A DNA stretch of 64,000 nucleotides, taken from NCBI RefSeq assembly GCF_032884065.1, contig NC_088883.1, positions 33,897,354-33,961,353 on the forward strand, in the 5' to 3' direction. Source of the DNA: Artemia franciscana (taxonomy: Eukaryota > Arthropoda > Branchiopoda > Anostraca > Artemiidae). Numbering within the stretch: position 1 is the first letter of the stretch; each line of letters opens with the position of its first letter. The translations under genes and the position numbers were made by a program. This document shows, in pieces, positions 27,701-53,900 of this stretch. The notes under the pieces are model-generated. The model was not told where the DNA came from. It made no database searches and saw nothing but the letters and a program-made list of their open reading frames with translations.

Positions 27701-30700
27701 AAATTTCTTGATCCCTCCCCCCGAGAATTAAACTCCGGGTTCAGGTATTGTAACAAAATTGTTGGCTGACAATTTCAATGAAACAACGATTTATGACAGT
27801 CCTACAAATATTTTTTTTTCTGCATACCTTTTTTCATTTATTAGATTTATGGTTTTTTTAACAGACTGGGTTGTTCTCTTCGTTTTTTTTTTGTAAGTTG
27901 ACTGCCCAAAATTTTACTGAATTGAAAATTATTGCACGGGAGATGGGGGAGCAGAGGGCTCAATTAGGGAATTGTTTTTCGTTCTTTCAAAGATTAGACA
28001 TTTTATTTAAAATTTCACATCCTCCCTTACAAGACGTCAGTCTATTTTCACTTGAATGATTTGCCCGTTTTTGCTGCTCTTAGGACTCCCCTGTCCCATA
28101 TAGTCATAAACTGCATGCACTCATATGGCAATATTATTTTCAAACGGAAGGAAGGGTGAAATTCGAAGTATACAATCAAAAAGACCCATTTTACTGATAG
28201 TTCTAAAGATTAGGATTTTTGTGGGTAGGGATATACTTTTAAATAAATTGGCCAAAATCAGTTCTCTATCTTAGTAATGTTAGTAAATTTACGTTGAAAC
28301 TAATAAACCTAATATGAATTAGACTATCCAGTGTGCTGAATGTTGTACAGAATTGTATTTGGATTTCCCCATCTTGTTCTAAACTCGTCAAATAAGATGC
28401 TTTCTACTCACAAAGAAAAAACGCATCAAGATCATTAAAAATAATGATATTTGATGTCTATAGCATTCTAAGGTCTTTCAGTTGAAATGACTGCTATAAG
28501 TAACAATTAAATTTTGAGGTCGCCCTAAGGGTGGCAAGAAAGAAGACCACACCTATTTTCTCTGTCGCAAAGAAAACTCAAAATACATTCCAAAACTCAA
28601 AGAAAGGTCATAGAGTCGCTTCTATTTTCAGCTTTTTAATATATGGCAGTTCTTTGGCTCTCGGTTTATTTCGAATGGCTTTGGTTTAAATTTATATTTT
28701 CGGTCTTATATTGATATGCAATTTTACCCTAGAATTAGATGTACGATATTGGTCCAGCAAATTATTCAGTTTTAAACATCAGCTCTGTTGCAATTATCTG
28801 CCTTCTCAGGATGATCTCGGCTTTGGTTTTTGACTGTGGTTTTTGGTTTTGGCTTTGGTTTAAACCAAAGCCATTTCGAATTGACTTTGGTTTAACTTCT
28901 CAGGATGGTATTGGCTTTGGTTTTTGACAATTTTAAACATCACCTCTGTTTCAATTCCCAGGACGGTAGGAAGCAATTGGAAGAAATGATAGGAAAACAC
29001 TTTGACAGACAGTGACGTAATTTCGTCAAAATTCTGGGGGGGGGGGCAAAGTTTGAGCCAATTTTCCCAAATCAATTTAAAATGACAGTGAAAATTGTAA
29101 AATGATCCATATGTTTACCATAAAATCAAAGATAAAGTGAAGAAAACTGACCTGTTTTCCTGGATACTTGAATTATGAAGGCTTATCTTAGTTTTGACAA
29201 GATTTTTGCAGAGACTAAACTTCAGCTGGGGGGCAAGCTGAGGTCTGGGGGAGAGTAAACTTGAACCTGTAGGAGGCAATTGCCCCCAGTCCTATTGCAA
29301 ATTACACCCATGTTGGCGGACGTCCTTGCCAAAATATTTGCTTTTGTTCTTTTCGCTCCTTTTCTTTCCACTAGCTGACACTATCTTCGTTTTCTCGGTT
29401 ATTTAATTATATTATTTTTTCTTGTTTGTCATACGTCTTGTATAGTCAGTGTGGTCTTTGAATGTATTTAAGAATTTACTTACACCAGCTTGCTTTGAAA
29501 TGACTCGCCCAAGCGTTGCAAAGACTGTATAATGTGGGGTTGAAGTATGTAGCACACATGGCGCTCAAAGATGTACGCCAAGTTGTGGAAAGTTGACAGC
29601 CCCTCGTTTTTTTTGCCTTGCAATCATGTTTATTTTTCACCTAGCTTAAGATATGGAAAAACTATAGAATATTGTTAATGCGATAATGTTCGAAAACCGG
29701 CCAAAATATTGACTTGCTTGACTAGCAGCAAAGCTTGTCGTACGACAAGCTAAAGAAGGGAAAAAGTACGCACGAATGTTAACTTAGAAAAAGAACTTTG
29801 TTAGAGAAAAAACAAAAGCCTATCAAATACCAAGGATAGGAGGAAGGAAATGGCGGTTTAGAGGCAGAATCTTGATTTCCCCGCTCCCCCCTCCCCCATC
29901 TCTGTCTTCTACAAAATTTCTGGCCAAATTTGAATAAAATTTTCTTCAGAATTTTCATTTATTTAAATGTTACTTTTCTTACTTTATGTGGAGAAAGATA
30001 TGGGAAAATAAACTGCGCCCTCTGTTTTGTTTTAATAGAAATAAGTTCAAAATATAACAAAATGATTATAAATATTAGATTGTTTATTTGAAATTTTCGG
30101 CCCCTAAAATTTCTACGTCCGGGGCAATGTCCCCCCTAAAACTGGCTCTGTAAGAAAAGCCTTTTTGCAATCCCCTCTCTCCCCCAACATAAAGTTTGAA
30201 TGTTCCCCCTCCCCCAAAAATAAAAGTTTTCATTCGATCCCTGATCTCGAGACAAAATTGGACAGTCTTACCCTGTCTACTATTGCCAAATCTTAGACAA
30301 GTTTCGAATACTAACATATATTCCCCCAGTTGCTAAGGAATTAATGGATCGAAAGCCCGTTATTTGGGAAACAGCTTACAATAACTAATTAATAATAAAA
30401 CTGGACATATTAATACTGAACTACGCCTGAAAATAAATAGATAAGAAATCCACTCACCAACAGTTCCCACGATTACATCACCAATCTAGTACTAGACAAA
30501 GACTCATGAATATATTAGGTCTTGAAATTGGACAAAAAAAAATTAAAACCTACCATCTCCAGGAAATCTCCATATCTATTCATCGAATTAAAAATTCTAT
30601 TTTTTTTTAGGCATTGCTCACCGCGACCTGAAGCCGGAAAACATACTGTGCGTCCGTCCGGACAGCGTAGTTCCGGTTAAACTCTGTGATTTTGACCTGG

Positions 30701-50900: not shown

Positions 50901-53900
50901 ACGGTAAATAAAATTGTCAAAGATTGACTTGACAAAGAAATGGTAGGTAGAAACGGTAAATAAAATTGTCGAAGATTGACTTGAAAAGGAAACGGTAAGC
51001 AGAAACGGTAAGTAAAACTTTCGAAGATTGACTTGAAAAAGAAACGGTGGGTAGAAACGGTAAATAAAATTGTCGAAGATTGATTTGAAAAAGAAACGGT
51101 AAGCAGAAACAGTAAGTAAAACTGTCGAAGATTGACTTGAAAAAAACGGTAGGTAGAAACGGTAAATGAAATTGTTGAAGATTGATTTGAAAAAGAAACG
51201 GTAAGTAAAACTGTCGAAGATTAACTTGAAAAAGAAACGGTAGATCAAAACGGTAAATAAAATGGTCGAAGATTGATTTGAAAAAGAAACGGTAAGCAGT
51301 AACGGTAAGTAAAACTGCCGAAGATTGACTTGAAAAAGAAACGGTGGGTAGAAACGGTAAATAAAATTGTTGAAGATTGAATTGAAAAAGAAACCAGTAA
51401 ATAAAATTGTCGAAGATTGACTTGAAAAAGAAACGGTAGGTAGAAACGGTAAATAAAATTGTCGAAGATTGATTGTAAAGAAAGTTGTAAGAAAGAAAAA
51501 GTGAAAATACTACTTTTGGAAGTTTTATAGAAGCATCTGAGGAAAACCGAGGAACATCAATATTATTGTTTTTTCCCCTTAATTTCCATCAAATGGCTAT
51601 CAGACTTCTATAAGTTCTTCAAAATCACAAATTTTTGCACAAGAAATACTCATTAACAGCTCTTGACTCACTTTTGCCCCACAGTGCATTACAAAAAACT
51701 CTTTGAATAGCCTGGTCTCAAGGGCTATCTGTTTCAGATTTTCAGGGAATTATCTGAGTATTCCTCAGGTTTTCAGCACAGTTCTTTTTAAAATTCCTTA
51801 CTTTCTTACAATCATTTGCAGACTCCAGAGAACACTCCAAAGAGCTCATAGTATGAAAATTACTCAGGAGTGAAATTTTGAAAAATATGCACGTGTACTT
51901 TGTTGTTGGGTAGATATATTTAAGGCATCTATAGATATTTTAAAGAAGAGACAAATTGTTTAGTTATTATCAAAGCATGAAGAAGTCAACTGAAAAGGAG
52001 ATGATTTATCTAGAGATTTTGATTGTGCAGGAGTGAGTAGGAAGAGCTGTATTGGTACCGGCCAGCCTAGTGGCCTTAAACAGCTGGGGACAGGCATCTC
52101 ATGTACCCGTACGTCCCACAATCAACAATAATGTATTAATTTATAAAATAGTGTGCACCCATTGTTTGCTGACTGGAAGGTAATAGTGCTTCCAGTGGCT
52201 AGTTTTTCTAATGAAGGAGTCAAAGAGGTAAAAGGACTTGATAATAGTCTATATACCTCTCTATAATTTTTGGAACTGGAACTGGATCATTTAGCTTTTC
52301 CATTCAGCATTACCATATTTGAGACCAAAAAAACATATTTTAGAAAACTAAATTGTCCCTTTATGATTATGATTCTACTATAACTATTATTGTATTAGAA
52401 ATATACTTGTTGCTTACATCTTCTTTTGTAGTTCTACTGCCTTTTCTTTTCTGTCGTAAGTCTCCATTATCTTCAGTCTATGCTGTTGCACAAGTCTCCC
52501 TTTCTCAATATTGAATTCCTCCTCTGCTTTAGCATCGATTTCTTCTACTTTCTCATTAGCTTCTTGCTCAATAAAACCCATCATTTGCTTAATCTATGAA
52601 AAAAATTAAATTTAAACTTGAAAAATTAGTTCAACTGCTGCTCAACAAAGCCCATCATTTACTAAAACTATGAAACAAATTAAATTTGTGCTTAAATTAT
52701 TAGCTAAATCCTTGCTCAAGAAACCCATAATTTACTTAATCAATGAAAAAGAATATATTTGTAAAATTAGGTAAATTCCTGGTCAATGAAACCCATCATT
52801 TGCTTCAAACATGAAATAAAGAAAATTTATACTGAAAATATTAGCCCAATTCTTGCTCAATAAAGCCCATCATTTGTTTTAACCAAAAATAAATAAAATT
52901 TTAAATTAAAACATCAGCTCAATTTTTGCTCAATAAAGCTCATCATTTGCAAATCCATGAAAAATATAAAATCCATGCTTGAAAATTAGCTCAATTCTTC
53001 CACAATAAAGCCCATCATTTGCTTAATCTATTTAAAAAATTATGTTCTTTTTTTATACAATTTTAGAAAGACAAAAAAGTATCTTCAATTTGATTAAAAT
53101 TCTCGGAATTCCAATGGGGAGGATCTTTTGTTTTTCCAATTTTCTTTAAAAAAAATTGTTTCTGAGTGCCTGGTATTTAAAAATAACATTCTTTTATAAA
53201 AAACTTGAGAGTAAAAAAAAATGAATCTTTTGAGTGTTTGTACCAGCCTAGTTATCCATATACTTTAGTAATGCAGCCTTTAGGTTTAAGATGTAAAAAT
53301 AGTCAATACTTGTGCAAAAGGTATACTTGAAAACAATGTTTGAAAACATTAATGAAAATTAAAGCTCTTAGACACGATATCCTTCCAAATCAAATTTCAT
53401 TAAGATCCGATCACCTGTTCGTAAGTTAAAAATACCTCATTTTTTCTAATTTTTCCGATTTAACTGTCCCCCCAGTCCTCCCCAGATGGTCGAATCGGGG
53501 AAACGACAATTTTTAATTTAATTTGGTCTGGTTCTTGGTACGCCTGCCACATTTCACCGTCCTAGCTTACCTGGAAGTGCCTAAAGTAGAAAACTGAGAC
53601 AGACACACAGACCAACAGACCTTGCAATCACTGTATGTCACTTGGTAGGTTTGGCCATAAAAAGCCAAATCAAAGAGGAAAAATCCGATCAAACTGGGCA
53701 GACCTGCAGCCACACACACACACACACCCGCCTCGGCGCCTGGGGCAACACCCCAGTCCCTCCCTTTGAACAGCTCTGACCATACTGTTACATTTATGGT
53801 TTTGTTGCTGCACTATTCTATTGCCTTAGCAATGAGACTACCCTTTGGCCTGCTCTGTTTTTGTTTAAAATAAATTAAAAATAAACTTTTTTTCCCAAGA

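Follow-up and report, generated by a model that had tools for sequence, protein, structure and literature searches.

Junction-spanning tandem arrays in the Mnk and V-ATPase subunit E genes of Artemia franciscana as probable samples of genome-wide local duplication

In Artemia franciscana, a stretch of 64,000 nucleotides (NC_088883.1, positions 33,897,354 to 33,961,353; hereafter the window, numbered from its first letter) contains tandem arrays at three exon-intron junctions of two genes, which encode a Mnk kinase and subunit E of the V-ATPase. These arrays raise the question of whether splice junctions are favoured targets of duplication in this genome or are hit like any other sequence. The second answer is favoured by our analysis: the three arrays are probably mirage-type minisatellites, of the kind known from amphioxus, and would be samples of a genome-wide local tandem duplication that strikes introns and exon edges alike (probability of about 0.75).

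The exons were identified from their translation, their splice signals and phmmer protein matches. The Mnk exons matched MNK2 chains (E 7.2e-56) and those of the V-ATPase E gene matched V-ATPase subunit E1 chains (E 7.4e-40). Eight exons were verified in the window in this way, four for each gene. Arrays in the window were detected by Tandem Repeats Finder and by sensitive self-alignment, and the genome searched comprised 1,270,528,402 bases in 6468 contigs, the window being on contig C21.

The Mnk array begins 62 nt inside the exon and each of its units passes the donor by about 67 nt. The copies start at 30673, 30833, 30978, 31138, 31299, 31460 and 31621 (spacing 145-161 nt), and the first intron bases are found at 30766, 30911, 31071, 31231, 31392, 31553 and 31699. 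GT is retained in all seven donors, and the nine bases of the true donor site are matched in four of the six decoys. Read-through beyond the true donor leads to a stop after about 24 codons. On the intron side, 1-4 positions separate the true junction from copies 2-6, and 16 of 66 separate it from copy 7; the closeness to copies 2-6 indicates homogenisation between the working junction and its decoys. A Cys codon common to the Mnk exon and MNK2 is absent from all six extra copies, which fits a loss of coding constraint. Duplication of a cassette exon was rejected for this array, the copies being devoid of the first 62 exon nucleotides and of the acceptor.

In the V-ATPase E gene, two acceptors are involved. 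At exon 2, six copies were recognised (the exon counted) in addition to a seventh, degenerate one, and AG is retained in two of six decoys. At exon 3, the array contains 49 cores including the true one, located at 47346-48361 and 50156-51478 and mostly spaced by 39 or 52 nt. AG is retained in 30 of the 48 decoys; four of these 30 would, on use, contribute an open in-frame segment. The G of this AG is among the most variable positions of the core, and positions +9, +10 and +14 vary as well; these changes are not independent, because they belong to amplified subfamilies. As the copies carry only about 16 exon nucleotides, a cassette exon duplication was rejected here also, and likewise for the exon 2 array. 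Many of the periods seen between 47323 and 51490 (13, 39, 52, 91, 104 and 156) are multiples of 13, deriving from the 13-mer AGAAACGGTAAGT; others (25, 40, 92, 245 and 297) are not. An element of some 1.74 kb has been inserted into the array. It carries inverted repeats in the region of 48391-48640, and short inverted termini could be seen by eye. Since array units are present on both flanks of the element, the array is the older of the two. V-ATPase E intron 2 measures 5077 nt, of which the array represents about 2.4 kb in addition to the element; the array thus lengthens the intron. The coordinates are collected in Table 1.

Table 1. Exons, arrays and other duplicated features of the window
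Feature	Position	Strand	Remarks
Mnk kinase exon	30611..30765	+	phase 0 end, CCG/gtaagc; its donor junction is the founder of the array
Mnk array	30673..31756	+	7 copies, each of ~93 nt exon end and ~67 nt intron
V-ATPase subunit E exon 2	52418..52593	-	translation, splice signals, protein match
Exon 2 acceptor array	52561..53059	-	period ~74; 7 copies, counting the exon and a degenerate unit
V-ATPase subunit E exon 3	47172..47340	-	translation, splice signals, protein match
Exon 3 acceptor array, exon-side half	47323..48361	-	21 of 49 cores, true acceptor included
Exon 3 acceptor array, far half	50106..51490 (ends approximate)	-	28 of 49 cores
Inserted element, ~1.74 kb	48362..50105 (ends approximate)		interrupts the exon 3 array
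V-ATPase subunit E exon 1	59046-59078		
Mnk exon, verified	18861-18958		
Large tandem array	15780..18370		no verified exon as anchor; nearest is 18861-18958
Two-copy loci (examples)	14313-14775, 23570-23906, 42449-42699, 55269-55589		

An earlier note on this DNA had described three junction-anchored arrays of 7, 7 and about 50 copies among ten visible exons. All three are present, with 7, 7 and 49 copies, and their anatomy (a piece of exon, the splice signal and intron, with growth into the intron) had been rightly read, the count of exons being reduced to the eight verified ones. The proposal that such arrays lengthen introns and supply decoy sites is upheld for the decoys and, as far as lengthening is concerned, as anatomy for V-ATPase E intron 2. 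The note had also seen no comparable array of unique intron sequence anchored elsewhere, a view that must be abandoned: self-alignment revealed 12 loci of local direct duplication in the window, among them the large array whose end lies about 490 bp short of the Mnk exon at 18861. The building block of this array is a dispersed repeat of some 300 bp, a further copy of which occurs at 53355-53600. In a separate test, local duplication touched 52 of 223 non-exon segments of 250 nt (20 of the 52 belonging to the exon-anchored arrays or to the element within one) and three of the eight verified exons. In addition, V-ATPase E exon 1 lies between two direct repeats of some 620 bp that are 73% alike, at 58080-58701 and 59560-60166.

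A wider sample was obtained from a protein kinase domain search of the genome, which returned 135 matches. The 2.2 kb around 40 short matches, hand-picked down the ranked list, were taken together with loci L022 and L029, giving 42 exons; two of the cores, L059 and L064, are 93% alike and both were negative. Ten of the 42 cores were touched by local direct duplication, and in nine of these ten (9/42, the junctions being placed by eye) a copy spans a junction. Donor-side copies were found in L022, L035, L039 (3-4 exon bases only), L052, L056, L063 and L065, and acceptor-side copies in L063, L068 and, as two weak matches, L046. The duplication in L053 is confined to the exon interior; for L052, a partial alternative exon is another possible reading. 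The splice dinucleotides are kept in some copies and lost in others. At 28 kinase loci, representing the best matches with mostly long open frames (some of them near-copies of one another), no local duplication was detected in the matched coding sequence, and 6.6% of the flanks were covered.

Two other families were also searched. The 20 matches to ABC transporters included few short exons. Out of 66 myosin matches, four places were examined; L109 and L110 were taken because their matches looked duplicated, and the four do not form a rate sample. At L109 (C4:18340300-18341600), two myosin exons lie 600 bp apart, with DNA 80% alike and nearly identical protein, and their sequences indicate a probable pair of functional alternative exons. 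L110 contains a partial exon duplication. Over roughly 1 kb, L111 and L112, two other myosin exons, were free of local duplication.

As controls, stretches located 6 kb from 32 of the 40 kinase exons were processed identically. These controls are unannotated and may contain transposons or exons; one N-rich stretch is present in each set (L052 for the exons, L095 for the controls). The guanine plus cytosine content of the controls is 34.6%, and 34.71% is given for the A. franciscana assembly in the accessible text of PMC11492255. The cores were touched in 9/40 exons and 8/32 controls (Fisher P 1.0), and the edges, within 20 nt, in 9/80 exon and 14/64 control positions. Local duplications covered 17.4% of the bases of the control stretches, 11.3% of the exon stretches and 8.0% of the exon cores. 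Similar proportions were obtained when at least two extra copies were counted (exons 6/42, controls 5/32) and when a looser rule of at least one extra copy was applied (10/42 and 9/32). Dinucleotide-shuffled versions of the 72 stretches were free of local duplication (0/72). It was concluded that junctions are not enriched in the kinase sample; they may even be hit less than other sequence. Of the two explanations offered in the earlier note, the proneness of splice junctions to duplication finds no support in these core and edge counts, and the decay of non-exon duplications past recognition finds none in the coverage of the controls, set against the empty shuffles.

Several observations nevertheless weigh against an even-handed process. 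Three of the four window arrays with at least three copies overlap a junction, where window permutation gave an expected mean of 0.94-1.18 (P 0.03-0.05; two broader duplication sets gave P 0.08 and 0.12). When a junction within 100 nt of an array edge was required, P fell to 0.0004-0.015, but this criterion is post hoc and biased towards the very arrays expected to survive selection. Of the ten exon-touching duplications of the sample, one was wholly exonic against 3.1 expected from a rough geometry (P 0.11), the exon and duplication lengths having been entered by hand and in part approximately. With margins of 30 nt, the cores were covered at 8.1% in exons and 16.9% in controls, a difference that is not significant (one-sided permutation P 0.08). 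The sample is small, with 42 exons of one gene family and 32 unannotated controls. If splice junctions were intrinsic hotspots, as might result from breaks linked to transcription or from slippage at the splice sites, the junction-bound window arrays and the nine of ten exon-touching duplications that cross a junction would be readily understood. Crossing is, however, largely what exon and duplication sizes would predict, and comparison with matched stretches revealed no excess at cores or edges. On the counts of this sample, the hotspot was rejected and we regard it as improbable.

Could the arrays or their copy numbers be artefacts of assembly? Along C21, the two genes alternate as V-ATPase E, Mnk, V-ATPase E, Mnk, each gene recurring after about 134 kb, and a further V-ATPase E copy, 95% alike, lies 394 kb away. 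Such near-identical blocks are what a faulty assembly might contain, and a gap of 100 N is present in the window at 39458-39557, between Mnk and V-ATPase E. The adjacency of the two genes (C21 33.55-34.06 Mb) may represent a haplotype join or a recent block duplication. On the other side, the copies within the arrays have diverged from one another, unlike assembly stutter, and the second Mnk copy (L002) has the same seven units, but 24 substitutions separate it from the window over 4 kb, of which 10 fall inside the array. In another V-ATPase E copy (L096), the inserted element likewise lies inside the exon 3 array, and copy number was observed to differ: beyond the element, 41 cores were counted in L096 and 28 in the window, the exon-side half of L096 being truncated where the sequence taken for it ended. 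L096, on the same scaffold as the window, may be an allele or a paralogue; for Mnk, the comparison gave seven and seven units. Finally, the likely source assembly was built from PacBio reads with haplotig purging, according to the accessible text of PMC11492255, although the precise count of units in the long array is unproven. The diverged, array-bearing copies of both genes led to the rejection of a pure assembly artefact, and we consider this explanation, for arrays or copy numbers, very improbable, the least probable of those considered. A mobile introner was rejected on the local confinement of the copies: the Mnk array was found at two places and the exon 2 array at three, which together occupy a region of about 0.5 Mb of C21, in a search that skipped very common words and did not include the exon 3 array. 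Retention for function, with repeated splice signals or intron length regulating the splicing of Mnk and V-ATPase E, would account for the intact GT of every Mnk copy and for the AG-bearing exon 3 decoys, including the four with an open segment. But the Mnk copies are young enough to have kept GT by chance, AG survives in a minority of exon 2 decoys, the conserved Cys codon is gone, and comparable duplications affect unrelated exons as well as the control stretches. A functional role thus appears unlikely.

In the reading that we prefer, that of mirage-type minisatellites, a local tandem duplication would by happenstance include an exon-intron boundary, and unequal exchange or slippage during replication would then enlarge the array and partially homogenise it. 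Selection would retain one intact junction and bar growth into coding sequence, so that arrays would extend into the intron. The surplus junctions would become drifting decoy splice sites, the true site being presumably chosen in normal splicing. It is conceivable, at somewhat less than even odds, that continuous local tandem duplication is a main engine of intron growth in Artemia, that about a quarter of exons have a duplicated edge nearby, that working junctions are repeatedly homogenised with decoys and that the spliceosome routinely chooses among near-identical sites. If the sampled frequency holds genome-wide, many natural experiments would be available in which a true splice site stands beside identical or slowly decaying copies. 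The effect of distance, order and small sequence changes on splice-site choice would then be measurable, as would the way in which introns lengthen.

These arrays were finally compared with known systems. In tandem exon duplication with alternative exons, an adjacent exon is likewise repeated, and the L109 myosin pair is a likely true case; the Mnk and V-ATPase E copies differ in consisting of an exon edge and one splice site, with no complete cassette. Intron gain or lengthening by tandem duplication, the Rogers model (cited in PMC3087553; PMC4974935 and PMC2891723 are related titles), shares with our arrays a local duplication carrying splice signals. Here, no new intron is formed and existing introns are lengthened. 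In the Artemia literature, no title on intron tandem duplication at splice sites was found, most subscription papers being outside the search; occurrence in an arthropod, a sampled frequency and a background control were not found in print and are new here.

Junction-spanning arrays as such are already known as the mirages of amphioxus, reportedly first described in Nucleic Acids Research (NAR) in 2002. The accessible parts of two papers describe them as junction-spanning minisatellites in Adh3 and in the globin genes BflGb6 and BflGb9, together with PGBD5 repeats, at donor as well as acceptor boundaries, with splice signals in numerous copies though not in every one (PMC3087553, PMC3902484). 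According to the same parts, their length is unstable between haplotypes and somatically, and regular splicing is undisturbed, as judged by reverse transcription polymerase chain reaction (RT-PCR) (PMC3087553, PMC3902484). The Mnk and V-ATPase E repeats also span the boundary with exon, splice signal and intron; donor (Mnk) and acceptor (V-ATPase E) boundaries are both affected, as in the kinase sample; and splice signals are partly kept, with GT in 7/7 and decoy AG in 30/48 and 2/6 copies. The differences are that normal splicing was established by RT-PCR in amphioxus, whereas the arrays described here were studied at the level of DNA, that the host is an arthropod, of another phylum than amphioxus, and that one array reaches 49 cores with a large insert. 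Furthermore, the rate was here measured in a sample and compared with the background.

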